Source: Dehalococcoidia bacterium
GTDB taxonomy: Bacteria > Chloroflexota > Dehalococcoidia > SHYD01
Direction of reading: 5' to 3'
Assembly (NCBI GenBank): GCA_009692945.1
Contig: SHYD01000021.1
Span: 1 to 39,849, forward strand
DNA: 39,849 nt
Shown here: piece after piece, positions 1,952 to 39,720 of the stretch
Numbering within the stretch: position 1 is the stretch's first letter
How the letters are laid out: each line of letters opens with the position of its first letter
Position numbers and translations under genes: made by a program
The notes under the pieces: model-generated
What the model saw: only the letters and a program-made list of their open reading frames with translations
Database searches by the model: none
What the model was told of the DNA's origin: nothing

Positions 1952-2346
1952 CGTCGTCCCCCTCGGCCATTGATCGCGGCCTGTACCAGCGTTTCGGCGC
2001 GGCGCAACGCCCTGGCAGCCTGTAGCTGGCTCACCATATCGTCTCGGTAGTCGGCCTTCTGCCGTCATTGAAGGTTCCATGCCAGCGTTTCCCGCAGGCC
2101 CGCAGAGTAACGGTGGCCCCGGTTGATCAGGTCTCCGACGAATTGGCTCTGCACCATATCATGGCGCACCTGGCCATTGGACGCAAAGGGGTTCAGGCCT
2201 TCCATCAAGAGCGCTGCGATCGCCGCCTGCAGGCAGGCGTAATAGCTCCGGTTGGCACTGCTGTTGAAGTGGCGATTGCCCAATTCGCTCTGGGCGCTGC
2301 TCAAACTCTCCAGCGCTTTGTACAAGTACAACTCATGGTTTGGCAT
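1948..2346 (-). pseudogene. HEPN-domain protein interrupted by an in-frame TGA
   Basis: The frame begins at 2346 (MPNHELYLYKALESLSSAQ) and shows the helical HEPN signature, including NRSYYACLQAAIAALL. It stops at a TGA (2065-2067) after ETLAWNLQ. Directly after that codon, in the same frame, come 41 more codons beginning RQKADYRDDMVSQLQ and containing ARALRRAETLVQAA. This is the expected HEPN C-terminal helix pair (RxxADY...VS...A...L..A..). That extension ends at 1948-1950, overlapping the next gene's ATG as ATGA, which is the natural operon junction. A single base change, for example CGA to TGA, would explain the stop. HEPN proteins are often RNases or partners of nucleotidyltransferases; no R-x4-6-H RNase motif is evident here. 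Confidence 0.7.
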
Positions 2347-2468
2347 AGCAGGCTCAGCATAGCATTATCGGCCGTGCACTCCTTCCCACCAGCCGGGAAA
2401 CCCGGCTTGTGGACGGGCCGACGCTGGCCGCCGTGAGCCTGCTGGTGAAGGCGGGCCGCTCGGTAACG

Positions 2469-3431
2469 CTACAACAGCGCGAGCGGGTTCACCGGGCTGG
2501 CGCTGGCGCCGTTGAGCTTCAGCGGCGACACCACGAACAGGAACTCCCAGCGGTTGCGCCGGGCACATTCGTCGCTGAGCCCCTCGTAGTCGGCGCCGTC
2601 GATGAGCCAGAGCCCCATGCCAGCGATGCCGATGCAGTGGATGGGCCGCAGGATGCGCCCCTCCTCCTTCGGCACCCAGTCGTTGGCGGTGTCGCAGGCG
2701 AGCAACGCGATGTCCCGCTCCCGCAGCCAGGGCAGGCAGGCGCCGTCGGGCCCGGCCTGGATGCCGGGATCGGCGTTCCAGCCCAGTTGATGCTTGCGCT
2801 TGGTGTGGCCGGTGCGCACGCAGAGGATGTCGCCGGGGCCCACCTTCACGCCCTGCTTGGCCTCCGCCTCCTCCAGGTCCTCGGGGAAGATGGGCGTGCC
2901 CGGCTCCAGCCAGTCGACTCCCCTCAGGCGGGCGATGTCGAGCAGCACGCCGCGGGAGACGATGCCGTCGCCCGCCAGCGTGACCGCGCCCTTGGTGACG
3001 CCGTCACGGGCCGTGATCGAGGTGGGCGGCAGACCGTTGTAGCCCGCCAGCGGGCGGTCCTTGGCGGGCTTGAAGAAGTAGTGGCCGGGGCAATCGAGGT
3101 GGGTGAGCGACAGGCCGTGCAGGTTGAGCACGGCGACGTCGGAGCTGCCGGCCATGCCCACGAAGTCGGGGTCCACAGCGTGGGGCGGGATGTTGTTCAT
3201 GTAGTGGCGGGCCTCGGGCCAGGCGTCGTCCAGGTTGTGCTCGTTGAAGCGGATGGCGTGGGCGCAGGAGATGGCCAGCCCCTCCCGGGCCAGGGCGAAA
3301 GCCTGGCGCCGCTTCTCGGTGGTGATGAGGTTCAAGGTGCCCAGCAGGTCATCCTTACCCCAGCGGCCCCAGTTGCTGAGGCTGTCGAACCACTGACAGA
3401 TCTGCTCGTCCGATGGGCTGACTCTGGCCAT
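2469..3431 (-). CDS. Cyclase family protein (kynurenine formamidase-like metal hydrolase)
   Basis: 320 residues of the PF04199 cyclase/formamidase fold. The metal-binding signature is seen as H105 followed by LTHLDCPGHYFF, giving His111, Asp113 and His117. Other conserved parts are DDLLGTLNLIT near the N-terminus, the GPGDILCVRTGHT stretch, and CIGIAGMGLWLIDGADYEGL near the end. The ATG at 3431 has a GGAGG eight bases upstream. Family members hydrolyse N-formylkynurenine or cyclic amides and esters, but the substrate cannot be told here. No tryptophan-degradation neighbours are present. Upstream lies a repeat-rich gap and downstream the HEPN pair, so it is probably transcribed alone. Confidence 0.8.
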   Translation of the reverse strand: MARVSPSDEQICQWFDSLSNWGRWGKDDLLGTLNLITTEKRRQAFALAREGLAISCAHAIRFNEHNLDDAWPEARHYMNNIPPHAVDPDFVGMAGSSDVAVLNLHGLSLTHLDCPGHYFFKPAKDRPLAGYNGLPPTSITARDGVTKGAVTLAGDGIVSRGVLLDIARLRGVDWLEPGTPIFPEDLEEAEAKQGVKVGPGDILCVRTGHTKRKHQLGWNADPGIQAGPDGACLPWLRERDIALLACDTANDWVPKEEGRILRPIHCIGIAGMGLWLIDGADYEGLSDECARRNRWEFLFVVSPLKLNGASASPVNPLALL

Positions 3432-5059: not shown

Positions 5060-6004
5060 ATGAGACGACTTCGGCTGTGCCTTTTGTGCTTCGCCCTGCT
5101 GCTGGCGGCTGGGTGCGTGTTGGGCGGGGCAGCGCCCGATCCGGCGCCGCCGGTGGAGATGGTGTTCCCCACGCCGGCGCCGCCGCCTCGGTTAGCACGG
5201 CGGGCGGAGGCCCCGCGTCCGGCGCCTCCGCCCGCCTCGGTGCGGCGGCTCGACCAGGACCTCCAACGGGTGGTCGAGCACGCGCTGGGCGGCGAGGCGG
5301 ACCACTACGGGGTGGTGGTGCTGCGGCTGACCGACGGCCGCGCCGCCCAACTCAACACCGAGAGGGTGTTCTACGCCGCCAGCCTGTTCAAGCTGCCGGT
5401 GATGGTGGAGGTGTTCCATCAGGTGGCGGCCGGAACGTTGTCCATGGACGAGGCGCTGGTGGTCACCGAGAGCGCCGTGGAATACGATCTCGGAACGCTG
5501 GCCCACGACGTGGGCGAGGCGGTGACGGTGCGGCAACTGCTGGAGGAGATGATCACCTACAGCGACAACGTGGCCGCTATCATGCTGCTGGGGCACGTCG
5601 CACCTGCCTCCATCGACGAGACGCTGGTCTCTCTCGGACTCGACCACACCTCGGTGGTGACCGAGGAGATCCCCACCACCGCCGGCGACATGGGACGGCT
5701 GATGGAGTTGCTGGGGCGGGGCCAGGTGGTGGACCACGCCGCCAGCGAGGCGATGTTGGCGCTGATGCGGCGGCAGGGCATCAACGACCGCATTCCCCAG
5801 GGGCTGCCCGACGGGGTGCCGGTGGCCCACAAGACAGGCAACGGGGACGACGCCACCCACGACGCCGGCATCGTATTCGCGCCGCACGGGGCCTACGTGC
5901 TGGCGGTGCTCTCGGACCTGGCGTGGGAGAACGAGGGGATCATCGACCTCTCACGGGCCGTGTTTCGCTACTTTGAAGGGCTGCCGCTAGAATCTAGACC
6001 TTGA
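5060..6004 (+). CDS. Class A beta-lactamase-like serine hydrolase, lipoprotein
   Basis: 314 residues. A short signal peptide ends in a lipobox, LAAGC (Cys19), followed by a Pro/Ala-rich linker to about residue 62. The penicillin-binding fold follows, with Ser108-x-x-Lys111 (ASLFK), Ser168-Asp-Asn170 (YSDN) and Lys258-Thr-Gly260 (HKTG). The omega-loop Glu-x-x-Leu-Asn of true class A beta-lactamases is not recognisable; EEIPTT lies nearby. It may therefore be a weak hydrolase, a DD-peptidase-like protein or a penicillin-binding enzyme rather than a resistance factor. The ATG has no clear Shine-Dalgarno sequence. Its 3' end overlaps thyX convergently by 11 bases. Confidence 0.82.
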   Translation: MRRLRLCLLCFALLLAAGCVLGGAAPDPAPPVEMVFPTPAPPPRLARRAEAPRPAPPPASVRRLDQDLQRVVEHALGGEADHYGVVVLRLTDGRAAQLNTERVFYAASLFKLPVMVEVFHQVAAGTLSMDEALVVTESAVEYDLGTLAHDVGEAVTVRQLLEEMITYSDNVAAIMLLGHVAPASIDETLVSLGLDHTSVVTEEIPTTAGDMGRLMELLGRGQVVDHAASEAMLALMRRQGINDRIPQGLPDGVPVAHKTGNGDDATHDAGIVFAPHGAYVLAVLSDLAWENEGIIDLSRAVFRYFEGLPLESRP

Positions 6005-6791
6005 CATTCTCGGTGTGTGCCTCGAAGGTGCCGTCTGCCAGCGCGACAAACTCGTAGTCGCCGAAGATGTGGGGGGCTTCGCCGAGCAGTGCCTGGGCCA
6101 CCTTATATTGCAGGCGCCGGATTTCGGCTTCGGCGTGGCCCGACACCCGCAGTTCGATGATGTTGCGCCAAGCCCGGGCGTTGCCGGTGGCGAAGATCAT
6201 CGTCTCGGTGGCGTTGGGCAGGTTCGACCGCGCCGCCTCCCGCACCATCTTGCGGCGCTCGGTGCGGCTGGGGATCGCTTGGAACTCGGGCCACGCCATC
6301 ATGCGCTCCACCCGCGCCATGTAGTTGGCCAGGTCCTCGGCCACCTCTTTGAACCAGATAGCCTCCTCGTCGGGGTGGCCCTGAATGGCGGGCGGCATCA
6401 CGAACCGGGCCCGGCTCTCGTCGACGTAGCGCTGCGAAAGCTGGGAATACGCCATCCCGGCGCGGTGCCGGACCAGTTCGTGGGTGAGGGAGCGGGAGAT
6501 GCCGGTGAAAATGAACCCCCACACGGCGTGCTCCAGCACCGACCCGTGGCGGGAGGAGAGGATGTTGTTGACGTAGGCGGTGAGGTCGCTGCGGCCGGTG
6601 CCGAAGGAAAGGTAGCAGAGCCGCCCTGCGGACTCGACGACCAGTTCGGCGGGCCAGGGGAGCCGGTCCGAGTAGTCCCACTGAAACCCCTCATTGGCCA
6701 GGAACCGATCGAGTTCCGGGGTGACCACGGTTTGGTGCGAAATCAGGTACACGTCCGGTTCCCGGACCACCGCTGGTGGGGTTTCCGGCAT
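5994..6791 (-). CDS. thyX: Flavin-dependent thymidylate synthase
   Basis: 265 residues from the ATG at 6791, chosen over an ATG at 6821 because GGAGG lies seven bases upstream of it. ThyX makes dTMP from dUMP with FAD, NADPH and methylene-tetrahydrofolate. Visible are SSRHGSVLEHAVWGFIFTG, ELVRHR (Arg108-His109-Arg110), SQLSQRYVDES (Ser119, Arg121) and the C-terminal SNLPNATET and ARAWRNIIELR segments. The signature spacing is RHR plus eight residues to Ser119, one longer than the textbook RHR-x7-S. The opening ISHQTVVTPELDRFL resembles a longer ThyX subfamily. The gene converges on the beta-lactamase-like gene with an 11-base overlap. Confidence 0.93.
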   Translation of the reverse strand: MPETPPAVVREPDVYLISHQTVVTPELDRFLANEGFQWDYSDRLPWPAELVVESAGRLCYLSFGTGRSDLTAYVNNILSSRHGSVLEHAVWGFIFTGISRSLTHELVRHRAGMAYSQLSQRYVDESRARFVMPPAIQGHPDEEAIWFKEVAEDLANYMARVERMMAWPEFQAIPSRTERRKMVREAARSNLPNATETMIFATGNARAWRNIIELRVSGHAEAEIRRLQYKVAQALLGEAPHIFGDYEFVALADGTFEAHTENVKV

Positions 6792-6819
6792 AAGCGCCTC
6801 CGGCAGAAATAGTCGTCTC

Positions 6820-6825
6820 ATTATA
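6820..6825 (-). promoter_or_regulatory. Possible -10 box for thyX
   Basis: On the minus strand a perfect TATAAT sits 28 bases before the chosen thyX ATG. No good -35 box is seen at 17-19 bases upstream, so this is a tentative call. Confidence 0.35.
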
Positions 6826-6916: not shown

Positions 6917-7384
6917 TTGGAACGCCGGCGGTCAGGAATCCTCGCTCTCATGGCGCTGTTGTTCAGCGGCCTCATCACCACCACGGTGACGGCAGAGCAT
7001 CAGCCGGTGGGCGGCCGGGTGCGCCGGGTGGCCGCGGTAACGGCTCCGGTGCCCTTCGGGCCAGGAAACGGGGTACCGCTGCCCAGCGTCGGGCCGATTG
7101 CGTTCCTGTGGCAGCTTCCGGCCGGGGCCACCCAGTACCAATTGCAGGTCATCCCCTTTCAAGGCGACGGCCCGGGCGTCAACTTGATCCGGGATGCCGA
7201 ATCCAACTTTGTGGTACCCGCCCATGTGCTCGGGCAGGGCCCCTACGTGCTCTTACCCGGCATGAGCTTGGCCGAAGGAGCGCATGCAACCCTTGAGGTT
7301 CGGACTGCCGGCAGTCTTGCTGGCAGGCGCAAGCTGGGCGCTGGCTACGGCCATGCTCTGGGCGGGCGCCGCGCCGCTGGTTGA
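6917..7384 (+). CDS. Secreted immunoglobulin/fibronectin-like domain protein, probably truncated
   Basis: The likely start is a TTG at 6917 with GGAGG nine bases upstream. It gives an ERRR n-region and a hydrophobic core (LALMALLFSGLITT) before a VTAEHQ cleavage region. The body (LPSVGPIAFLWQLP, ATQYQLQVIP, GQGPYVLLPGM) looks like a beta-sandwich domain of cell-surface proteins in which a WRVR-type strand normally follows. Here the frame runs into Gly/Arg-rich sequence and overlaps the next gene by 101 bases. The 3' end may therefore be frameshifted or cut by the neighbour. An alternative start is ATG 6950. Function unknown; its position suggests a link to the copper genes downstream. Confidence 0.5.
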   Translation: MERRRSGILALMALLFSGLITTTVTAEHQPVGGRVRRVAAVTAPVPFGPGNGVPLPSVGPIAFLWQLPAGATQYQLQVIPFQGDGPGVNLIRDAESNFVVPAHVLGQGPYVLLPGMSLAEGAHATLEVRTAGSLAGRRKLGAGYGHALGGRRAAG

Positions 7385-7748
7385 CCACCACGCTGGGGAG
7401 CGCGACCCCTGGCATACCCACGTGACCACGAGCGCGCTGCCGGCGCCGGGAGCCCACCTCGCTCACATCCACCCCTACGAACTTCCTCATCTGCACGACC
7501 GCTCGACGCCCGCTCACTTCGATGTTGGGTCCGGCGCCGAGACCGTCCCGGGACTGGTGCTGATGACCAGCGCTCCGGATTCTGCGCCTTCCTCCACGGC
7601 GGCGCCGCTCGGTACGGGAGCGTTGGACACCACCACCCCTGCAGCCGTGGCCTTTATGCGAGGCGTCTCCGCTGACGGCGCGACGGTGACGCTCCTCGGC
7701 GTAGCGGCCGGCGCCCCCACACCTCCCCCTGAACCCGGTCTCGTTTGA
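7284..7748 (+). CDS. His-rich membrane/secreted protein, possible metal binder
   Basis: 154 residues from an ATG with AAGGAG five bases upstream. One N-terminal hydrophobic helix (PAVLLAGASWALATAMLWAG) is followed by a His-rich stretch (DHH, HTH, HLAHIH, HLH, AHF) within about residues 34-79, then a Ser/Thr/Ala/Pro-rich tail. No family is recognised. Clustered His on the outer side of the membrane, just upstream of YtkA- and CopCD-type genes, suggests copper or other metal binding; that is inference. It overlaps the previous frame by about 100 bases but has the better start signal. Confidence 0.6.
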   Translation: MQPLRFGLPAVLLAGASWALATAMLWAGAAPLVDHHAGERDPWHTHVTTSALPAPGAHLAHIHPYELPHLHDRSTPAHFDVGSGAETVPGLVLMTSAPDSAPSSTAAPLGTGALDTTTPAAVAFMRGVSADGATVTLLGVAAGAPTPPPEPGLV

Positions 7749-7814
7749 CCGTTCGCGTATTCAGGCGTTCCGGCCGGGCCGGGGCGTCACTATCTACGAT
7801 GGGGAGATGTGACC

Positions 7815-8477
7815 ATGATCAACGTATTCCCGGCGGTTGGCCGGCTATTGGCGGCGGGAGTTTGCTCGTGGCTGCTCCTGTGGCCGGCGGTGGCGCTGGC
7901 CCACGAGCGGCGCGACGTCGGCAAGTACCAGTTTGTGGTGGGCTGGGCGGGTGAACCAGCCTTCGAGGGCGAGAAAAACGGCATTTCCCTCAGGATTCTG
8001 GTGCGGGACAGCAACGAACCGGTCTCGGGCGCGGAGCAGACGCTGAAGGCCGAGGTCTTGTTCGGGACACAACGCAAGGAGGTCCCGCTGCGGGCGGTGT
8101 TCCAGCAGCCCGGGATGTATGCCGGGGACCTGGTGCCCACCAAAGAGGGTGATTACCGCTTCCGGTTCTTCGGCGCCATCGATGGCGCCGAAGTGAACCA
8201 GACCTTCGACAGCGCCGACAAGATGTTCAACGGCGTGGAAAGCATCAGAGCGATCCAATTCCCCGCCGCAGAGTCCCCGGTAGCGACGGCGCCGCCCGTT
8301 CCAGCCGCCGCTGCGAATTCCGGAGCCGCTCTCGCTGGCTTGCAGTCCGCCGCACAAGCAGCCCAGAGCGCTGCGGCCAGCGCGCAGACGCTTGCCATTG
8401 TGGGGGCGGTGCTGGGGGGTCTCGGCCTCCTTCTGGGTGGAGTGGCAATGTTGCGCAACCGCCCGGCGGCGGCATAG
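7815..8477 (+). CDS. YtkA/FixH-like extracytoplasmic protein with C-terminal anchor
   Basis: 220 residues from ATG 7815, with GGGGAG about eight bases upstream. The signal peptide ends near AVALA-HERR, leaving His30 at the mature N-terminus. Residues about 30-150 form a beta-sandwich region (KYQFVVGWAGEPAFEGEKN, EVLFGTQRKEVPLR, AGDLVPTKEGDYRFRFFG) of the kind found in YtkA-like or CopC-associated proteins. An Ala-rich spacer (about 160-190) leads to a C-terminal membrane helix (LAIVGAVLGGLGLLLGGVAML). The CopC-CopD fusion follows 61 bases downstream, so a role in copper delivery or sensing outside the membrane is likely but unproven. Confidence 0.7.
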   Translation: MINVFPAVGRLLAAGVCSWLLLWPAVALAHERRDVGKYQFVVGWAGEPAFEGEKNGISLRILVRDSNEPVSGAEQTLKAEVLFGTQRKEVPLRAVFQQPGMYAGDLVPTKEGDYRFRFFGAIDGAEVNQTFDSADKMFNGVESIRAIQFPAAESPVATAPPVPAAAANSGAALAGLQSAAQAAQSAAASAQTLAIVGAVLGGLGLLLGGVAMLRNRPAAA

Positions 8478-8538
8478 CCGGATCGAAGGCGGGGAGGGCC
8501 GAGTGGCGCCGCCCGTCCCCGCTCGATCAGGTGCGACG

Positions 8539-10782
8539 ATGTTGAACTTGCCGCGGCTGCGTTTCCCTCGTGGCGCTCTGTTTATAGCCACCGTCCTCGC
8601 CCTATCGCTGGTTCGGGCGGGGCCGGCCGAAGCCCATGCCAGCTTCGTGCGATCCGATCCCCCGGCAGACTCGGTTCTGGCGGCGTCGCCGCCGCGCATC
8701 CAGATCTGGTTCACCGAACCGCTGGAGTCTGGTTTTTCGACCATCCAGGTGCTTGATGCTCGGAGCCAGCGACAGGACGAGGCCGACGCGGCCATCGCGC
8801 CTGGCGATCGGACATCGATGACCGTCTCACTGAAGCCGGTCCCCGATGGCAGCTACACCGTGGCCTGGACCGCGCTGTCTTCGCTGGACGGCCATGTCAC
8901 CCGGGGCGTGTTCTCGCTGTTCATCGGAGTACCGGCGACGCCTCGGACAGCCGAGGTCATCACGGAGGCGAACAGCGGCACTCCCTGGGAGGCGGGCGCC
9001 CGCTGGCTGGTGTTCCTGGGGGCCGCTCTCACCTTGGGCACGCTCGTCTTCCGCGCATTCGTCCTGGAGCCCGTGGTGCGACGGGCGAACCCGGCGGCGC
9101 CTCCGCCGCTGCCGCGGCCGGCCTGGCTCATGGCGGCGGGATGGATCATGCTGGCGCTCGGGACCGCCGGAGGGCTAGCCGTCCAGGTGGTGGCGGTCGG
9201 CAACGAGGCCACGATCGAGGGCGCGGCCGCCTTGTTGACCTCGACACGCTACGGTGCGCTGTTGCAGGTGCGGCTGGTCCTGCTGGCCCTGGCCGGGATC
9301 TTGTTGTGGGCAGGGCGCCAGGAGGGACGGGCTGTTGCCGGCGCGCTGCTGTTGGGGGTGCTGGCCACCGTCAGCATGAATAGTCACGGCGCAGCCGCCG
9401 AGCCCGCGGCACTGGCGATCGCCTCAGACTGGCTGCATTCCATTGCCGTCGCGGTTTGGGCCGGGGGGTTGGCCAATTTGGCGCTGGGGAGCAGGAGCGT
9501 GATCAAGGGCACGGCGGAGGGATGGCCGCTGCTTGGGGCGATCGTCCTCCGGTTCTCCAACGCCGCCACCATTGCGGTGGCGGTGGTGCTCGTGACCGGT
9601 ATCTATCAGAGCGACCTGCACGTCGGCGGTCCCGGCGCCCTCACCGGGACCCTGTTTGGGCGGTCGCTTATGGCGAAGATCGCTCTTTTCGGCGTTCTGT
9701 TGGTCCTGGGGGGATTCAACCATTTCTACATCGGTCCACGGCTGGCGCGGTCGAGTGGAGCAGGCGTGGTTGCCGCTGCGAGGATGTTCAAACGAACGAT
9801 TGGCGCCGAGGCGGTCCTAGTGGTGCTGGCGCTGCTGGCAGCAGGGCTGCTCACCAGCGTGCCACCAGCGCGCGGCACCTATGACCAACTCCAGGCGCAG
9901 CGGGGCCTGACCCTCACGGCAACAGCACGGGGACTGCAGCTAGCGCTCAACGTGGCGCCCGGACGCCCGGGGGTCAACCGCTACCAGGTCGCCGTCACCG
10001 ACAACGCCGGTCAGGCGGTGGTGGATGCAGAGCGGGTCGATGTGAATTTCAACTATTTGGACAGCGCGCTGGGCGCCAAGCTGGAACGGATGGAGCCCGC
10101 CGGTGGCGGCCGGTACGTCGCCACCGGCGGGACGTTGGCGCTGGAGGGCCGCTGGCAGGCCGACCTGTTGGTGCGGCGACCCGGCCAGGAGGATGTCCGA
10201 ACGGCGTTCCGGTTCCGCGTCACCCCTATGGGAGCCCAAGCCGAGGCGGCTGGCGCCCCGCCGGCCGCGGGTTTCCCCGCGTTCGGCCTCGTCAACCTCG
10301 CCGCATGGTTCTTCGCCGTGGTGACGCTGCTCGGGGCGGGAGCCGCGGCGAAACGGTTGGGCGTGCGGACCTTGGAGGGCGGGGCCACCACCGCTGCTGG
10401 GCTGCTCCTCGCCGCGCTCATGGTGTTCGTGGCGGTGCGGACTGAGCCCGCCGTGCCACCTCCTGACGTTAAGTCGGTGGTCAATCCCTTTCCTGCGACA
10501 GACGATTCGATCCGCTCGGGGGAGGCCATCTATCAGGCCAATTGTCTGAGCTGCCACGGCGTCACCGGACGGGGCGACGGACCGGCCGGGTTGGTGCTCA
10601 ATCCCAAGCCGGCCGACTTCAGGATCCACATGGCCGCGGGGCATACCGATGGCGAACTGTTCAATTGGCTCAGCAACGGCTTCCCGGGCACCGCAATGCC
10701 GGCGTTTGGCGATAAACTGACGGAAGAACAGCGATGGCACGCGATCAACTTCATCAGGACCTTTGCTCCATCCGACCGTTGA
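8539..10782 (+). CDS. CopC-CopD copper protein fused to a cytochrome c domain
   Basis: 747 residues from ATG 8539. Parts in order: signal peptide ending AEA; CopC domain with His33 at the mature N-terminus and Asp117-Gly-His119 (SLDGHVTRG), the usual copper ligands; CopD membrane domain of about eight helices (roughly 145-470; AGARWLVFLGAALTLG, MNSHGAA, SDWLHSIAVAVWAGGLANL, VTGIYQSDLHVGG, GGFNHFYIGPRL); an outer beta-sandwich (about 480-580; NRYQVAVTDNAGQAV) like YtkA; one or two helices; and a class I cytochrome c with C669-x-x-C672-His673 and probable axial Met720 (GTAMPAFG). CopC and CopD move copper across the membrane; the attached heme implies redox coupling, which is inference. It sits between a YtkA-like protein and a beta-propeller lipoprotein in one apparent operon. 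Confidence 0.9.
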   Translation: MLNLPRLRFPRGALFIATVLALSLVRAGPAEAHASFVRSDPPADSVLAASPPRIQIWFTEPLESGFSTIQVLDARSQRQDEADAAIAPGDRTSMTVSLKPVPDGSYTVAWTALSSLDGHVTRGVFSLFIGVPATPRTAEVITEANSGTPWEAGARWLVFLGAALTLGTLVFRAFVLEPVVRRANPAAPPPLPRPAWLMAAGWIMLALGTAGGLAVQVVAVGNEATIEGAAALLTSTRYGALLQVRLVLLALAGILLWAGRQEGRAVAGALLLGVLATVSMNSHGAAAEPAALAIASDWLHSIAVAVWAGGLANLALGSRSVIKGTAEGWPLLGAIVLRFSNAATIAVAVVLVTGIYQSDLHVGGPGALTGTLFGRSLMAKIALFGVLLVLGGFNHFYIGPRLARSSGAGVVAAARMFKRTIGAEAVLVVLALLAAGLLTSVPPARGTYDQLQAQRGLTLTATARGLQLALNVAPGRPGVNRYQVAVTDNAGQAVVDAERVDVNFNYLDSALGAKLERMEPAGGGRYVATGGTLALEGRWQADLLVRRPGQEDVRTAFRFRVTPMGAQAEAAGAPPAAGFPAFGLVNLAAWFFAVVTLLGAGAAAKRLGVRTLEGGATTAAGLLLAALMVFVAVRTEPAVPPPDVKSVVNPFPATDDSIRSGEAIYQANCLSCHGVTGRGDGPAGLVLNPKPADFRIHMAAGHTDGELFNWLSNGFPGTAMPAFGDKLTEEQRWHAINFIRTFAPSDR

Positions 10783-10793
10783 GGTGAAGTGCG

Positions 10794-11858
10794 GTGAAGA
10801 AGGCAATGCACAGGTTTTTCTCCCGAACTCTGTTGGCACTCTTGGCAGCAGGCGTGGTCGCCGTGACGGGAACGACGGTGACCGCATGCCAAGCCAAGCA
10901 ACCGGCGATCGCCACGCCTCCCCCGGGCCCCACGGTAGCCGGACCGCTGCCCGGCGTGGCGGGACGGCTGCTCTTCGCCAAGTACAACGAGTTGTGGAGC
11001 CTCGAACTGGGCACCGCCAAACTCGAGAAGATGGTGGCGTTCCAGGAGCAGAGTTTCGTAGGCTGGCCCGCGGTCTCGCCAGATGGCAAGCTGGTGGCCT
11101 TCAGCCTTTATCGCCCGGGCCGGACGCCTCAGGAACTCGGGGGGAGCGACCTCTTTGTCATGAGCGCCACGGGCAGCGACCGCCGGATGGTGCTGGCGCA
11201 CGACACCCCAGGGTCGTCGCTGTCTGAGCCCGCCTGGGCCGCCGGCAGTGCCGGCCTGTACTTCACCCGCCGCGGTCTCGACGGCTCGGCCCGCATCGAA
11301 CGCATCGGTCTGGATGGCGCCGGAAGGACTCCGCTGGTTCCCAACGCGCAGTCACCCGCGGTGGCGCCGGATGGGTCCCGGATGCTCTACCTGACCACCA
11401 ATCCCAAGACGTCGTCGCAGCTCCTGTGGACGGCCGGGGTGGATGGAACCGGCGCGAAAACGTTGGTAACGGACCAGGACTTCACGTTGCTGGGCTTTCC
11501 GCGGTTTGCCCCGGACAGCAAACGGGTCGCCTTCGTCGCAGTGGGCGGCCCCACGCCCCCCGCGAAGCCGGCGAGTCTACCCTCGGGCCGGGCGCTCCCC
11601 GGCGGCCTGCTCGAACTCCCGCCCGCCTACGCCCACGGTGTCCCCTGGGATCTCTGGGTCATCAATACCGACGGTACTGGTCTAAAGCGGCTGACGGAGA
11701 TGGGAGGCGATTCCCCGGTGCCGGCCTGGTCGCCCGACGGACAACGCATCGCCCTGGCTATGGAATTCGGGATCTACCTCGTCGACCTCATCGGGTCCCC
11801 GCCGCTGCTGGTAGCCGAAGACTTCACCACCGGTGGGGTGACCTGGCTGCCGCGGTAA
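10794..11858 (+). CDS. Beta-propeller (PD40/TolB-like) lipoprotein
   Basis: 354 residues from a GTG at 10794, with GAGGTG eight bases upstream, 11 bases after the CopCD fusion and so in the same operon. An N-terminal hydrophobic segment ends VTAC (Cys32), a probable lipobox. Repeated PD40-type strands follow: WPAVSPDGKLVAFSLY, DLFVMSATGSDRRMV, SPAVAPDGSRMLYLT, FPRFAPDSKRVAFVA, DLWVINTDGTGLKRLT and VPAWSPDGQRIALAM. Such propellers are usually scaffolds or binding proteins. No catalytic residues are recognised and the ligand is unknown. Confidence 0.8.
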   Translation: MKKAMHRFFSRTLLALLAAGVVAVTGTTVTACQAKQPAIATPPPGPTVAGPLPGVAGRLLFAKYNELWSLELGTAKLEKMVAFQEQSFVGWPAVSPDGKLVAFSLYRPGRTPQELGGSDLFVMSATGSDRRMVLAHDTPGSSLSEPAWAAGSAGLYFTRRGLDGSARIERIGLDGAGRTPLVPNAQSPAVAPDGSRMLYLTTNPKTSSQLLWTAGVDGTGAKTLVTDQDFTLLGFPRFAPDSKRVAFVAVGGPTPPAKPASLPSGRALPGGLLELPPAYAHGVPWDLWVINTDGTGLKRLTEMGGDSPVPAWSPDGQRIALAMEFGIYLVDLIGSPPLLVAEDFTTGGVTWLPR

Positions 11859-11945: not shown

Positions 11946-13439
11946 TTACCCCAACAACTCCATCGCCACTGTCGCATCGTGGAACGGCATCTCAGCGCCG
12001 TTGAGCGGGATGGTCTGCTCGTGACCGCGTCCGGCCAACAGCACGGCGTCGCCGGGGCCGGCAAGGGCAAAGGCTTTCGCAAAAGCCTCCCGGCGATCGA
12101 GCACACAGAAGAAGTCGGCGTCCTCGCGGCAGCCGAGTTCCAGCGCCGCTGAGCGCATCTCGGACAGGATGGCTGCCGGGTCCTCGTCGTAGGGGTCGTC
12201 CATGGTGAGCACGAAGCGGGCGTTCGCCTGCTGGGCGGCCGACACCAGGTCGCGCCGGTGGTGTGTATCGCGCCGTCCGGCGTGGCCGAACACGGCGATG
12301 GGGCGACGCCCCGGATGCACCGCCTCCACCGTTGCGAGCGCTGCGGCCAGCCCCTGGGGCGTGTGGGCAAAGTCCACATACACCGTGAACGCGCGGTGGG
12401 CCGGCAGCCGCTCCATGCGGCCGGGCGGCGGCGTCACCGTCGCGGCAGCGGCGGCGACATGTTCCGGGCCGGCGCCACAGGCCAGCGCGGCGGTCGCCGC
12501 CGCCAGCCAGTTGCGCACATTGAACCGGCCCAACAGCGCGGTCTGGATGGGCGTCTCACCCTGGGGCGTAACTAAAATGAAATCCGTGCCCTCCGGCGTC
12601 AGCACGATGGAACGGGCGGTGACGTCGCCCGGTCCGTCCAACCCCCAGGTGCGGACTGCCGGGGCGGCGGCGATGAAGTGGGCGGCGGAGGGATCGTCCA
12701 GGTTGATAACACCCACCGGTTCGTGGGGCTTGTGCCGGGGCCCGCGCAGTTGCTCGAAAAGCCGGAGCTTGGCGGCCCGGTATTCGTCCAGGGTGGCGTG
12801 GTAATCGAGGTGTTCCGGGGCGAGGTTGGTGAACACGGCGACGTCGAACTCGCAGCCATCGACCCGCCCGGTGGCGAGCGCATGCGAGCTGACCTCCAGA
12901 ACGGCGTCGGTCGCACCGCCGTAGGCGGCCTCGGTCAGCAGCCCCTGGAGTTCCGGCGCCTGGGGCGTGGTGAAGCCTGCCCGGTTGGCCCGAGCCGATG
13001 CGCCGTCGTGGAACTCGACGGTGGTGAAATGAGCGGTGCGGCGCCCGGCGGCCCGCAGAATGGCCGCGATGAGCAGCGTGGTGGTGGTCTTGCCGTCGGT
13101 CCCAGTGACGCCGATCAGCCGCATCCGTCGGCTGGGGTGGCCGAAGTAGGCACTGGCGATGGGGCCCACCGCCGCGGCGGGATCGTCCACCACGACCATG
13201 CAGGCGGGCAACGGTCCCCCCTCGGGCGGCTGCAGGCACACCACGACGGCGGCTCCGGCGGCGACCGCGGCGCCGATGAAGTGGTGGCCGTCGGCCTGGA
13301 GTCCCGAGAGGGCGACGAAGAGGTCGCCGGGCTGCACCCGGCGGCTGTCGGTCACCACGCTGCGGATGGCGGTGTCGGGGTTGCCGGTCACCGACCGCAC
13401 CGGCAGACCGGCGATGAGTTCTCGGAGCGTTTGGAGCAT
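11946..13439 (-). CDS. murE: MurE-like Mur ligase (UDP-MurNAc-tripeptide synthetase family)
   Basis: 497 residues with the three Mur-ligase domains: N-terminal UDP-binding (SVVTDSRRVQPGDLFVAL), central ATPase (P-loop GVTGTDGKTTTT at 111-120, LEVSSHAL, FTNLAPEHLDYH, probable carbamoylated Lys224 in RAAKLRLF) and C-terminal domain (GRMERL, DFAHTPQGL, GRGHEQ). The amino-acid-selecting loop, DNPR in diaminopimelate-adding MurE, reads DDPY (414-417) here. The usual GxGGDRDxxKR segment reads GHAGRRDTHHR. The amino acid added is therefore probably not meso-diaminopimelate, or the protein has another role. No other cell-wall genes are adjacent. Confidence 0.85.
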   Translation of the reverse strand: MLQTLRELIAGLPVRSVTGNPDTAIRSVVTDSRRVQPGDLFVALSGLQADGHHFIGAAVAAGAAVVVCLQPPEGGPLPACMVVVDDPAAAVGPIASAYFGHPSRRMRLIGVTGTDGKTTTTLLIAAILRAAGRRTAHFTTVEFHDGASARANRAGFTTPQAPELQGLLTEAAYGGATDAVLEVSSHALATGRVDGCEFDVAVFTNLAPEHLDYHATLDEYRAAKLRLFEQLRGPRHKPHEPVGVINLDDPSAAHFIAAAPAVRTWGLDGPGDVTARSIVLTPEGTDFILVTPQGETPIQTALLGRFNVRNWLAAATAALACGAGPEHVAAAAATVTPPPGRMERLPAHRAFTVYVDFAHTPQGLAAALATVEAVHPGRRPIAVFGHAGRRDTHHRRDLVSAAQQANARFVLTMDDPYDEDPAAILSEMRSAALELGCREDADFFCVLDRREAFAKAFALAGPGDAVLLAGRGHEQTIPLNGAEMPFHDATVAMELLG

Positions 13440-32411: not shown

Positions 32412-32545
32412 TAGTGGTCCAAGACACGTAATGCGGGGTCATCACAGACCGCTCACCCTGAGCCTGTCGAAGGGCGAGCCCGTGGTTCGACGGGGCTCAC
32501 CACGAGCGGTTTCGTACCACCCGATTCATGAGTCATAGACCACTA
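32412..32545. mobile_element. MITE-like element whose right end supplies the carbonic anhydrase stop codon
   Basis: Ends CTAGTGGTC (32412-32420) and GACCACTAG (32537-32545) are exact inverted repeats of nine bases and stay alike for about 20. The inside has a large imperfect hairpin, CCGCTC...GAGCGG, with CCCTGAGCCTGTCGAAGGG (32456 onward), a sequence that recurs in part at about 27347. The carbonic anhydrase stop TAG lies in the right end (32543-32545). The remainder of the gap (32148-32411) shows no gene. Confidence 0.6.
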
Positions 32546-33472
32546 GCGGGAATCGTCCACGAACACATCCCGGCCGTAGAGCGGCTGAGTGATGCGGCTG
32601 TTGTAGTCGAACAGCGCCCGGAAGGTCTGGATCTGCGAGGGCGATACGCTCACCGGCGTCTTCATCAGCAGCCAGGACACGCCCTCGGAGCAGGGCGGCG
32701 TGGTGAGCGAGCCGGCGTAGCGGAAGGTGGTGCGGACGGCGGGCAGGATGGTGCTGGGATCGAATACCCCGGCGATGAGTTGCTGGCCGCCCTCTTTGGT
32801 GGGCATGGCCTCCCACACCGGGGCCAAGGCGTTGTTCTGCGCGCCGCTGTCGAGCAGCACGCCGACCACCGCCAGCTTGCCGTCCTTGTTCTTGTGCACC
32901 AGGTGCAGTTCCATGGGGAACTGGCGTCCGTTCACCGAGTGCTCGCTGGGGCGGTGGAAGTGGAACTGGGCCAGCTTGTACTCCTGGCCCTCCAGCACAA
33001 TGCCGCCGCCGTCGGTCGCAGGGTCGACGCCGAAGTTGCCCTGGATGGTGTGGCCGTTGTTCACCACCTGGACCTGGGCCGCGCGGTACTTGTAGTCGAT
33101 CTTGCTCAGCGGCGACGGGGTCGGGTTGCTGATGTCGATGGGCGATTGGGCCGAGCCGTCGAGGCACGCTTCATACGCTGCGGAAAGCCCGCCCCAGCGC
33201 TGCTGGCCCTGCTTGCCGGTGTAGTTCCAGTGGGGAGCGGCGTGCCCGGCGTCCTTGGCCGCCACGCCGTGGCCGGCGTCCTTGGCAGGCGCCGCGCCGT
33301 GAGGATCGGCAGAGGTGCTGCTGGTGTTCTCAGTCTCGTGGCCTGCGGCCGCAGCGCTGGCGCTGGGGTTGGTCTCTTTCTTGGTCTTGGCGCTGGGGGC
33401 GCAGCCGATGCTGAGCAACAGCAACGAGCTGGCCAGCAAACCAACAAAAAACTTCCCACTATTCAGTTGCAT
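32543..33472 (-). CDS. Alpha-type carbonic anhydrase, lipoprotein
   Basis: 309 residues from ATG 33472 with GGAGGT seven bases upstream. A signal peptide ends LLSIGC (Cys24, lipobox), then comes an Ala/His-rich linker with two AKDAGH units. The alpha-carbonic anhydrase domain follows: HWNYTG, QSPIDIS, zinc ligands His171 and His173 (FHFHRPSEH) and His190 (ELHLVH), Glu177-His178, and SLTTPPCSEGVSWLL near the end. It hydrates CO2 reversibly outside the cell membrane. The stop codon lies in a MITE-like end, so the last residues could be slightly altered. No bicarbonate transporter is adjacent. Confidence 0.93.
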   Translation of the reverse strand: MQLNSGKFFVGLLASSLLLLSIGCAPSAKTKKETNPSASAAAAGHETENTSSTSADPHGAAPAKDAGHGVAAKDAGHAAPHWNYTGKQGQQRWGGLSAAYEACLDGSAQSPIDISNPTPSPLSKIDYKYRAAQVQVVNNGHTIQGNFGVDPATDGGGIVLEGQEYKLAQFHFHRPSEHSVNGRQFPMELHLVHKNKDGKLAVVGVLLDSGAQNNALAPVWEAMPTKEGGQQLIAGVFDPSTILPAVRTTFRYAGSLTTPPCSEGVSWLLMKTPVSVSPSQIQTFRALFDYNSRITQPLYGRDVFVDDSR

Positions 33473-33669
33473 CTCGCCCACCTCCATCGGGAAATTCGCC
33501 CCGTTCAAATGAGGCTTCACCTGTACTATCGGTGGGGTCGAGCCGGGTGTGAGAGGGCGGGATGGGAGGGGATCAGCGGGTCGGTCGCCCGTAGCGGTGA
33601 CGCATGCGTCGAACGAACGGTTGTCCCGTAGTGGCGACGCCCGGTTGCGGGATGAGGGCGTGGGGCCGA

Positions 33670-33839
33670 GGGCGGGTTTCAAACCCGCCCCTACACCGGA
33701 TCGCCGGCCCCGCAACGAGGCCAATGGCGCGCATCGGCGCGTCAGCATCGGGCCGGGCAGGTCCCCGGAGAGCGGCCCGGATTGGGCTTATTACCGCCAC
33801 CGTTTGCGTTCTCCGTAGGGGCGGGTTTCAAACCCGCCC
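33670..33839. repeat. Inverted pair of GGGCGGGTTTC palindromes
   Basis: The 21-base palindrome GGGCGGGTTT-C-AAACCCGCCC occurs at 33670-33690 and 33819-33839. The first is followed by CCTAC and the second preceded by GTAGG, so the two units face each other. The 491-base gap 33473-33963 holds no gene; it also has two similar CCGTAG(C/T)GG(T/C)GACGC segments at about 33584 and 33627. Confidence 0.75.
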
Positions 33840-36841: not shown

Positions 36842-37423
36842 GTGAACCGGGGCTCTCCCCTCATTCTTGGTGTTGCGGTGATCGTGGTCCTGCTTGCGGT
36901 ACTCGCCGGAGGCCAGGTGGTGGCCGCCCAGCTCCAGGCTGGGCCGGAGCAGCCGGTGGGATTCACCCACCTGACCCATGCCGGGACCCTGCAGATGGAC
37001 TGCACCTTCTGCCATCGCAATGTGGAGAAGGGCGCCAACGCCAGCGTTCCCGCCGTGCAGCAGTGTATGTTCTGTCATTCGGTGGTGTCGGAGAAAGAGA
37101 ACGCTCCGGGCGTCCCCAATGCCGAGATCGCCAAGGCGCGGGAGGCGTACGAAGCGGGCCGCCCCATAGACTGGATGCGGGTGCACCGGCTGCCAGATCA
37201 CGTGCGGTTCATTCACGAAGCGCACGTCCGGGCGCTGGGCCCGGCGCCTCAAAGCTGCACCGTTTGTCACGGCGATATCAAAGGCATGCAGAAGGTCTCC
37301 CAGGTCCAGTCGCTGAAAATGGGCGATTGCGTGTCGTGCCACCGTGGCGACCGCAAGGTCCTGATCGGCAACGAGATGAAGTCCTTCACCGCCCCCACCG
37401 ACTGCACGACCTGTCACAGGTAG
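36842..37423 (+). CDS. actA: Pentaheme cytochrome c, ActA-type
   Basis: 193 residues from a GTG at 36842 (AAGGAA about nine bases upstream). One N-terminal membrane helix (LGVAVIVVLLAVLAGG) is followed by five CxxCH sites at C54, C75, C139, C163 and C188. Typical ActA features are GFTHLTHAGTLQMDCTFCHR, VHRLPDHVRFIHEAHVR and MGDCVSCHRG. In alternative complex III, ActA carries electrons from the quinol side towards the monoheme subunit. The next gene is an ActB-type protein, 11 bases on, which fits that complex. Function in this organism remains inferred. Confidence 0.88.
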   Translation: MNRGSPLILGVAVIVVLLAVLAGGQVVAAQLQAGPEQPVGFTHLTHAGTLQMDCTFCHRNVEKGANASVPAVQQCMFCHSVVSEKENAPGVPNAEIAKAREAYEAGRPIDWMRVHRLPDHVRFIHEAHVRALGPAPQSCTVCHGDIKGMQKVSQVQSLKMGDCVSCHRGDRKVLIGNEMKSFTAPTDCTTCHR

Positions 37424-37434
37424 GCCAAGGTTTT

Positions 37435-39720
37435 ATGGAAGTTTCCCGGCGCAATTTCATCAAGGTTACCGGCGCATCCACGGCCGGAGCGGTGCTGTTC
37501 AACGGCTGCACGGTTCCGGACCGGGAGAAGGTCATCCAGAGCCCGAACCAACTGCCGGAAGATACCGTCAGCAGCTTCGAGAACTGGTACGCCAGCGTGT
37601 GCCGGGGCTGTTCCGCCGGCTGCGGCATCATCGTCCGGGTGGTCGAGGGCCGCGCCAAGAAGATCGAGGGTAACCCGGACCACCCGGTGAGCCAGGGCCG
37701 GTTGTGCGCCCGTGGGCAGGCCGGCCTCCAGGACCTCTACCACCCCGACCGCATCCGCAGCCCCTTGCGACGGGTGGGGCCGCGTGGTTCCGGGCGCTAT
37801 GACGTCATCTCGTGGGACGACGCCCAGGCCGAGTTGACGGGCCGCCTGAAGGCGCTGGCGGAGGAGGGCAAGGCGGATAGCGTGGTGCTGGCCACCGAGC
37901 CGCTCCGAGGGCTGAATGCGTTCATCGCCCAGCAGTTCAGCACCATCTATGGGGCCAGGCTCCTCGCATTCGAGCCGTTGGACCAGGGGGCGTTATGGAA
38001 GGCCTCCCGGGACGTGTTCGGCGAGGACACCATTCCCTTTTTCGACATCGAGCGGGCGAATTACGTCCTCTCCTTCGGGGCCAACTTCCTGGAGCCCTGG
38101 CTGTCGCAGGTCTCCTACAGCCGGGCCTACGGCGAGTTCCGCCAGGGCGAACGCCGGGAGCAGCGGGGCCATCTGGTGCAGTTCGAGCCCCGGATGTCGA
38201 TGACCGGCGCGAACGCCGATGAGTGGGTGACCATCAAGCCCGGCTCCGAAGGCATTCTGGCCATGAGCATGGCCTATGTCATCATCGCCGAGGGGTTGGC
38301 CAACCGCGCCGTGGTGGACATCATGACCGCCCGTGGCGGCGCCAGTGCCCTGGCCGCCTTCCGCCCCGAGGAGGCTTCGAAGCAGACCGGAGTCCCGGCT
38401 GAGCGGATCCAGGGGTTCGCCCGGGCCTTTGCCAAAACGGCGCCCGCGCTGGCCATTGGTGGCGCCGGGGCAGCGGCCCATACCAACGGCTCTTTCAATC
38501 TCACGGCGATACTTGCGCTCAACTTCTTGGTGGGAAACATCAATCGCCCCGGCGGCGTATTCGCCAACCCCACGGCATCGATCCCCGAATTCTCGGCGCG
38601 GGTGACCGCAGCGCCCTACCGGGAGTGGCAACGGCTGGCAGATCGGTTCGAAAACCCCAGCCTCCGGCCGGTGGGGATGCTGCTGGTCAACAACACGAAC
38701 CCGCTCTACGGGTTGCCGCTGGAGGCCAGATTCGGGGACGGCCTCAAAAAAGTCCCGATGATCGTTAGTTTCTCCAACATGATGGACGAAACCACGGTCA
38801 TGGCGGACCTCATTCTGCCCAGCGGCTCCTACCTGGAGTCGTGGGGAGACGATATCCCCGAGCCCGGCATCGGTTACGAGACCATCAGCTTCCAACAGCC
38901 GGTGGTGCGCCCGATGTACCTGACCCGCAGTTTTGCTGATGTCATGTTGGCCTCGGCAGCCGGTCTGGGCGGCCAGTTGAAGACGGCGTTGCCCTGGGAA
39001 AATCAACAGGCGGCGCTCAAGGCGGCGGCCGACAAGGTGTTCAAGCTGAACCGGGGTTCCGTCCGTGGTCCCAGCTTTGCGGGTTGGTGGAACGGCGTTC
39101 TGCAGCGCGGGGGCTGGTGGGACTTCACCCCCACAGGACGCAAGGACATCCGGGTGGCCGCCCCCACGCTGCCGCGGCAGGTGATATCCGCTAATTTCGC
39201 GGGGTCTGACAAGGAATTCCCGTTCCATTTGACGATTTTTGCGTCGACGGGTGTGGGCGATGGCCGTGGCGCCCACCTGCCCTGGCTCCAGATGACGCCG
39301 GACCCGACCACCACGATCGCCTGGCAGAGTTGGATCGAGGTCAACCCGAAGACCGCGACACGGCTGGGTCTGAAATCGAACGATATCGTGACGGTCACGG
39401 CGCCCAACAACCGCAAGCTCGAAGCCATCGTTTACGTTTACCCGGCGATACCGGAGGACGTGGTAGCCATGCCCGCGGGGCAGGGGCACAGCTTCATGGG
39501 CCGTTATGCCCAGAAGCGCGGCGCCAACCCCCTTGCCATCCTTGCGTCTCAGGTGGACAGCGACACCGGCGCGTTGGCGTGGGGCGCCACCAGGGTGCGG
39601 ATCGACAAGACAGGACGCACCGTGCGCCTGCCCAAGCTGGAGGGGGCGGTGCCCGCGGTGCAGCCCCCCGACTACGAAGTGGTTCAAATCACCGACCTGC
39701 GCAAAGCCGGCGGCAACTGA
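37435..39720 (+). CDS. Molybdopterin oxidoreductase-like protein, ActB-type
   Basis: 761 residues from ATG 37435. A Tat-type signal SRRNFIK is followed by a hydrophobic stretch ending LFNGC (Cys25). Cys56-x2-Cys59-x3-Cys63-x27-Cys91 looks like an intact [4Fe-4S] site. Then come Mo-bisPGD-type domains: SWDDAQAELTGRLKAL, VLSFGANFLEPW, WVTIKPGSEGILAMSMA, NFLVGNINRPGGV, LLVNNTNPLYGLP, LILPSGSYLESWGDD and a C-terminal beta-barrel (ATRLGLKSNDIVTVTAP). Canonical ActB fuses such a domain to a ferredoxin-like B2 domain of about 250 residues that is absent here; B2 is either a separate gene beyond the window or missing. A Psr/Phs-type enzyme is an alternative. A repeat follows 66 bases after the stop. 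Confidence 0.85.
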   Translation: MEVSRRNFIKVTGASTAGAVLFNGCTVPDREKVIQSPNQLPEDTVSSFENWYASVCRGCSAGCGIIVRVVEGRAKKIEGNPDHPVSQGRLCARGQAGLQDLYHPDRIRSPLRRVGPRGSGRYDVISWDDAQAELTGRLKALAEEGKADSVVLATEPLRGLNAFIAQQFSTIYGARLLAFEPLDQGALWKASRDVFGEDTIPFFDIERANYVLSFGANFLEPWLSQVSYSRAYGEFRQGERREQRGHLVQFEPRMSMTGANADEWVTIKPGSEGILAMSMAYVIIAEGLANRAVVDIMTARGGASALAAFRPEEASKQTGVPAERIQGFARAFAKTAPALAIGGAGAAAHTNGSFNLTAILALNFLVGNINRPGGVFANPTASIPEFSARVTAAPYREWQRLADRFENPSLRPVGMLLVNNTNPLYGLPLEARFGDGLKKVPMIVSFSNMMDETTVMADLILPSGSYLESWGDDIPEPGIGYETISFQQPVVRPMYLTRSFADVMLASAAGLGGQLKTALPWENQQAALKAAADKVFKLNRGSVRGPSFAGWWNGVLQRGGWWDFTPTGRKDIRVAAPTLPRQVISANFAGSDKEFPFHLTIFASTGVGDGRGAHLPWLQMTPDPTTTIAWQSWIEVNPKTATRLGLKSNDIVTVTAPNNRKLEAIVYVYPAIPEDVVAMPAGQGHSFMGRYAQKRGANPLAILASQVDSDTGALAWGATRVRIDKTGRTVRLPKLEGAVPAVQPPDYEVVQITDLRKAGGN

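Follow-up and report, generated by a model that had tools for sequence, protein, structure and literature searches.

A YcnJ-like copper protein fused to cytochrome c in a conserved operon of Chloroflexota: a candidate for redox-coupled copper acquisition

The closest characterised protein to the fusion described here is B. subtilis YcnJ, in which CopC, CopD and YtkA domains follow one another in a single chain. The CopC and CopD sites of YcnJ are needed under copper starvation for oxidases, its YtkA domain aids CuA assembly, and no associated reductase is known (PMC13344008); whether copper is 'reduced en route' has been stated as open (PMC12362106). The handling of oxidation state by CopD-type importers is an explicit open question (PMC13344008, PMC12362106), for which the fusion is a concrete candidate. 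A comparable set in C. glutamicum, comprising an anchored CopC (cg1884), a PCuAC encoded nearby (cg1883) and CtiP, in which CopD is joined to the respiration-related domain CtaG, is needed for cytochrome aa3 (PMC9145763), and SCO and PCuAC act together in building the CuA centre (reviewed in PMC9145763). In Rhodobacter capsulatus, oxidase assembly is served by the membrane cupric reductase CcoG (cited in PMC13344008). Two further points of comparison come from the sulfur metabolism of Thioalkalivibrio paradoxus: cytochrome c552 (9vr0/7o9u), which partners thiocyanate dehydrogenase, a copper enzyme (PMC9456337), and a flavocytochrome c-CopC complex (5n1t), which is a precedent for CopC beside a heme c protein. 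We found no description of a CopC-CopD-YtkA-cytochrome c fusion in an open literature of 5.39 million papers, and an earlier mention elsewhere is possible; nor did that literature yield a matching characterised system or an earlier description of the operon, in line with the original prediction that no characterised system has this exact set.

The copper gene run occupies the plus strand of the window, i.e. the whole stretch of 39,849 nt from a Dehalococcoidia bacterium (contig SHYD01000021.1) that was analysed, at positions 6917-11858, and is flanked by thyX and a convergent minus-strand ORF (Table 1). The original prediction, made from the sequence alone, was of a copper operon of five same-strand genes. 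Four of these genes can be retained, and the recurrence of such neighbours on the fusion's strand among 86 loci bears out a conserved copper operon. The place of the fifth, ORF 6917-7384, is doubtful because it shares approximately 100 nt with the gene for the His-rich protein, no homologue of it was found beside the fusion in relatives, and its FnIII-like domain occurs in 15 copies scattered over the host genome, most of the alignments ending near residue 120. The FnIII-like domain was seen joined to a CopC domain once (L167:3251-4141), the second copper His of that CopC domain being lost (EDGDKA replaces DGH). Scans of the gene run for sigma-70-like promoters and for terminators gave nothing above chance, and an RNA element or riboswitch within the operon was rejected, as an Rfam search gave no match. 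The window also encodes an alpha-type carbonic anhydrase (32543-33748, minus strand) and a TAT-signal molybdopterin oxidoreductase, possibly in a respiratory complex (37063-39720, plus strand).

Table 1. The copper gene run, its boundaries and the domains of the fusion protein (window positions)
Feature	Position	Strand	Remarks
thyX	5994-6821	-	boundary of plus-strand run, 5' side
ORF with FnIII-like domain	6917-7384	+	TTG start, ATG at 6950 possible; doubtful operon member
Small His-rich protein	7284-7748	+	homologues recur upstream of fusions
Anchored beta-sandwich protein (c1)	7809-8477	+	predicted mature N-terminus His32; C-terminal membrane helix
CopC-CopD-YtkA/FixH-like-cytochrome c fusion	8539-10782	+	747 aa; ATG 8539, stop 10782
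CopC domain	8635-8916	+	Pfam CopC, residues 33-126, 1.1e-18
Putative Cu(II) His-brace ligands of CopC	H33 (8635), D117 (8887), H119 (8893)	+	invariant, 38/38
CopD membrane domain	8995-9867	+	eight predicted membrane helices; invariant H283, D297, H300, E424
YtkA/FixH-like beta domain, outer side	9904-10224	+	FixH E=0.0022; strands 457-561
Two membrane helices (584-606, 612-634)	10288-10440	+	model and hydropathy; predicted to return the cytochrome to the outer side
Class I cytochrome c	10474-10767	+	CLSCH 10543-10557, M720 10696, H697 10627, H702 10642
PD40 beta-propeller lipoprotein	10794-11858	+	Pfam PD40 3e-16; probable partner or scaffold of fusion
Convergent ORF	11946-13439	-	boundary of run, 3' side

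The central gene had been read as encoding a 747-residue fusion of four domains with copper ligands on CopC and a heme c with a Met ligand, and both the domain matches and the conservation of the ligands, scored on a 38-sequence alignment, agree with this. Beyond the N-terminal CopC domain, Pfam matched CopD (residues 335-438, 7.7e-17), FixH (461-554, 0.0022, below the cut-off) and Cytochrome_CBB3 (657-739, 4.3e-13), and the NCBIfam CopD model aligned to residues 153-443. The predicted mature protein begins at H33, signal peptide cleavage falling between PAEA and HASF, and the heme motif, C669-x-x-C672-H673, is followed by the Met ligand M720, matching the pattern of CxxCH with a Met about 45 residues on. 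None of the 38 aligned sequences departs from the others at the CopC ligands, the four CopD residues, CxxCH, M720 or a further pair of cytochrome histidines, H697 and H702. Across 34 family members, CopD and Cytochrome_CBB3 were matched in every one, and the third domain was matched by YtkA in 11 (best 2e-8) and by FixH in seven (best 6e-6); in the window protein this domain matched FixH only, sub-threshold, so that its YtkA type is seen at the family level.

An AlphaFold2 model built from the 34-sequence family alignment (mean pLDDT 82) has the same order, namely a CopC beta domain, eight helical segments of membrane length (149-440), another beta domain (457-561), a pair of helices and an all-alpha cytochrome. 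Its top PDB match by Foldseek was the CopC domain of YcnJ (9c14, TM 0.92), and the nearest solved fold for the cytochrome part was T. paradoxus c552 (9vr0, TM 0.80), with ActE of alternative complex III (6lod_E) also matched; structure prediction, which had been proposed as a check, is in agreement with the four-domain reading. Because the signal peptide is cleaved and an even number of helices precedes each outer domain, we infer that CopC, the YtkA-like domain and the cytochrome share the outer face. We considered whether H697 and H702 are a signature exclusive to the fusion and rejected this, since T. paradoxus c552 has both and a few fused members are without the motif.

The likeness to YcnJ covers domains 1 to 3 and their order, the same CopC His-brace ligands and the conserved CopD histidines (H283 and H300 in the fusion, either of which might correspond to H295 of YcnJ), as well as a neighbouring gene for an anchored protein of the outer side and a link to oxidases. 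However, YcnJ is without cytochrome c, whereas the fusion adds two helices and a heme domain after YtkA; judged from its sequence, the fusion appears to be YcnJ plus a heme, with domains 1 to 3 known and the C-terminal helices and cytochrome c new. Similarly, the His-rich protein and the PD40 lipoprotein are additions relative to ycnKJI. In C. glutamicum CtiP the partner of CopD is CtaG rather than cytochrome c, and the T. paradoxus proteins, despite the shared pair of extra histidines, are separate soluble proteins and do not form a membrane copper importer.

A search for the four-domain architecture, one of the checks suggested by the original prediction, collected at least 98 distinct ORFs, nearly all from Chloroflexota or Thermomicrobiota. 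Within the class, a match over the full span (residues ~15 to 743) was present in 60 of 294 genomes. A wider scan covered ~85,000 species genomes, and most of the best 80 loci taken from it belong to Chloroflexota (Dehalococcoidia, SAR202 among them, Anaerolineae and Tepidiforma) and Thermomicrobiota, with a few labelled otherwise; some of the ORFs lie on very long contigs, and one is carried by a named strain, Thermalbibacter longus CFH 74404 (Thermomicrobiota). Phylum-wide, many genomes have the full-length protein and many others the three-domain CopC-CopD-YtkA part alone, ending near 565-590 (model position). Common carriage on plasmids was rejected, as no plasmid record spans 80% of the fusion.

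The heme is not present throughout the family. In nine Anaerolineae-type members (L139, L142, L147, L150, L152, L154, L155, L158 and L162, from Anaerolineae and related genomes) all copper ligands are kept and the cytochrome has shrunk to a remnant without CxxCH, and in an intermediate (L157) CxxCH is retained and the Met and both extra histidines are gone. A tree of the non-cytochrome domains places these ten in a single starred clade nested within the heme-bearing set, which is consistent with a single loss of heme in one Anaerolineae lineage. Since the copper sites of this clade are intact, the heme appears not to be essential everywhere: on the aligned sequences it would be dispensable at least in these Anaerolineae and has been retained elsewhere. 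The role of the heme could be judged against the heme-less sister clade, which nature provides as a control.

We compared gene order at 86 distinct loci whose upstream flank was 2.5 kb or longer, counting neighbours within 2.5 kb of the fusion. The anchored beta-sandwich protein, here termed c1, was found at 37 loci, an anchored stand-alone CopC (c2) at 34, the His-rich protein at 19 and the PD40 lipoprotein at 15, always on the strand of the fusion and never on the opposite strand, so that the proposed search for gene order did find His-rich, c1 and PD40 genes recurring beside it. The His-rich and c1 genes recur immediately upstream of the fusion, in a position that c2 takes at other loci. 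The two anchored proteins occurred together at one locus of the 86; this mutual exclusion suggests that c1 and the anchored CopC have the same job, like YcnI beside YcnJ. All 19 loci with the His-rich protein also have c1. Both the small His-rich and the N-terminal-His anchored families exposed by the operon are without an assigned function. In three loci (L036, L038 and L039, e.g. L039:10272-11825), the fusion is followed on its 3' side by a conserved membrane protein of ~515 aa, without a Pfam match, in which one loop is rich in Cys (CGKCSQECN...CVDCFECF).

The His-rich protein, described earlier as a His-rich membrane protein, proves to be one of a conserved family, with 25 homologous ORFs upstream of fusions. 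It has a hydrophobic N-terminal segment, the motif PLVDHHxxERxPxHTH...HxH...HxH and a proline-rich C-terminus, and its histidines are strongly conserved (H44 and H46 in 24/24 sequences, H61/H63 in 23/24 and H69/H71 in 22/24). A Pfam search with this protein gave no match; it likely binds copper on the outer side. For c1, the earlier description as a YtkA-like anchored protein is upheld as regards the anchor and the beta-sandwich, which is predicted together with a C-terminal helix (pLDDT 86), but not as regards YtkA: the window protein was not matched by that profile (PF13115), and matches in five of 29 members were weak (best E 5.6e-4). The predicted mature N-terminal H32, together with E49 and N57, is present in 43 of 44 c1 sequences, and among the Ig-like folds that Foldseek matched to the model was that of CrdA, a copper resistance protein (TM 0.62). 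YcnI (DUF1775) shares the N-terminal His and the membrane anchor, but c1 has no match to the DUF1775 profile, and no YcnI was among the fold matches listed. By analogy, we propose that c1 may be a Cu(II) carrier for the fusion, in the place that YcnI has beside YcnJ.

The beta-propeller lipoprotein was recognised correctly from the outset; besides the PD40 match, the lipobox Cys (C32) is kept in 21 of 24 homologues. In a Thermomicrobiales member (L143) a propeller of this kind forms the C-terminal end of the fusion itself (38% identity over 326 aa, E 1e-51), and this single case argues strongly that the separate propeller probably works with the fusion. A copper-binding propeller like that of thiocyanate dehydrogenase or N2O reductase was considered and rejected, as no His is conserved in at least 75% of the 24 sequences.

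The suggestion that copper might be handled to load oxidases gains support from both gene neighbourhoods and gene content. The nearest relative of the window protein (L083, 45% identity) is encoded in a single run of SCO, His-rich, c1, fusion, SCO, PCuAC and PD40 genes, another locus (L145) has the order anchored CopC, fusion, SCO, PCuAC, and in Armatimonadota (L160) genes for SCO, PCuAC and VKOR precede the unfused version, a separate cytochrome c gene and a CopC-CopD-YtkA gene. SCO and PCuAC were not found in the window's own operon, and the 81%-complete host genome gave only a sub-threshold SCO match. The heme-copper oxidase subunit COX1 was detected in 58 of the 60 fusion-bearing genomes and in 118 of the remaining 234 (Fisher P=7e-13, uncorrected for genome relatedness), an association that may in part reflect aerobic life. 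The host genome itself encodes COX1-3 with a COX2-cytochrome c fusion, i.e. a CuA-type caa3 oxidase, as well as a cytochrome c assembly protein.

Taken with the domain order, these data suggest that copper is reduced or oxidised while it is taken up for the making of respiratory enzymes. Our working hypothesis, which we hold at about even probability, is that the operon is a YcnJ-type system, with a heme relay, that acquires copper or delivers it for the assembly of oxidases, the relay most likely serving Cu(II) reduction. Redox-coupled acquisition or delivery is favoured because an electron carrier has been added on the Cu(II)-capturing face. The outer-side, membrane-anchored His-rich and N-terminal-His proteins would capture Cu(II) and transfer it to the His-brace site of CopC, from which it would be handed over to the membrane site of CopD, and the YtkA-like domain would pass copper on to oxidase assembly chaperones. 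Copper binding and transport, and the import step in particular, are here modelled on YcnJ. The cytochrome c, lying on the shared face, would swap one electron with copper; most likely it would reduce Cu(II) to Cu(I), drawing on the respiratory cytochrome c pool for electrons, and the reduction would serve either the crossing of CopD by copper or its loading into CuA. Both the transfer between heme and copper and its direction are our reading of this arrangement. The heme would then have the role that CcoG has in R. capsulatus; CcoG is an iron-sulfur protein, unrelated to the fusion and not joined to a transporter. The more specific idea of a self-reducing importer, in which the fused cytochrome c reduces Cu(II) of CopC/CopD with respiratory electrons during uptake or CuA loading, is a tentative one that we put at somewhat less than even. 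If true, the fusion would contain the dedicated cupric reductase that is missing for YcnJ-type importers, the Anaerolineae clade would later have uncoupled the reductase by heme loss, and the operon would help to explain oxidase loading in mostly uncultured Chloroflexota, including SAR202.

Electrons might instead flow in reverse, the cytochrome taking them from Cu(I) and passing them to the oxidase so that Cu(II) is presented to CopC and damage by Cu(I) is limited. CopC is by its ligand set a Cu(II) site, COX1 is co-present in fusion genomes, and T. paradoxus c552, with its same extra His pair, accepts electrons from a tri-copper dehydrogenase (PMC9456337); however, the SCO and PCuAC genes of relatives are genes of delivery and not of detoxification, and no recurrent multicopper oxidase or efflux ATPase was noticed among neighbours in clusters that were annotated in part, so that we regard a cuprous oxidase as unlikely. 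To a cytochrome that serves docking or sensing, tethering the copper machinery to the caa3 oxidase or to alternative complex III with no redox chemistry of copper, we assign a similarly low probability: the likeness of its fold to ActE and the persistence of a domain remnant in the heme-less members fit such a role, but the invariance of CxxCH and Met in the 38 aligned members exceeds the needs of a purely structural one.

More doubtful still is an ordinary CopCD-type operon for copper resistance or storage, where the heme does nothing specific to copper. CopC and CopD do take their names from copper resistance, and the His-rich protein could be a copper sponge, yet the characterised YcnJ acts under copper starvation (PMC13344008), the linkage to SCO/PCuAC and the association with COX1 point to oxidases, and the recurrent neighbours noticed, again in partly annotated clusters, included neither a CopA/CopB-type multicopper oxidase nor an efflux pump. 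Finally, joining of the heme and CopC domains by misassembly had been named as an outcome that would undo the prediction, and the window does come from a fragmented genome; an assembly or annotation artefact is nevertheless extremely improbable, and misassembly was rejected, because the same domain order is found within one ORF across at least 98 distinct loci, among them the very long contigs and the T. longus strain mentioned above.

Several individual loci depart from the common arrangement. The propeller-bearing member is a single ORF of 1153 aa with five domains, CopC-CopD-YtkA-cytochrome c-PD40 propeller (L143:7881-11342), and one fusion has two cytochrome c domains (L041). At another locus an additional stand-alone cytochrome c gene lies right after the fusion (L088:10217-10939), and a second CopC-CopD copy within one genome (L165, G000:C62, ~2189-3397) has in-frame stops that reflect either decay or sequencing error.
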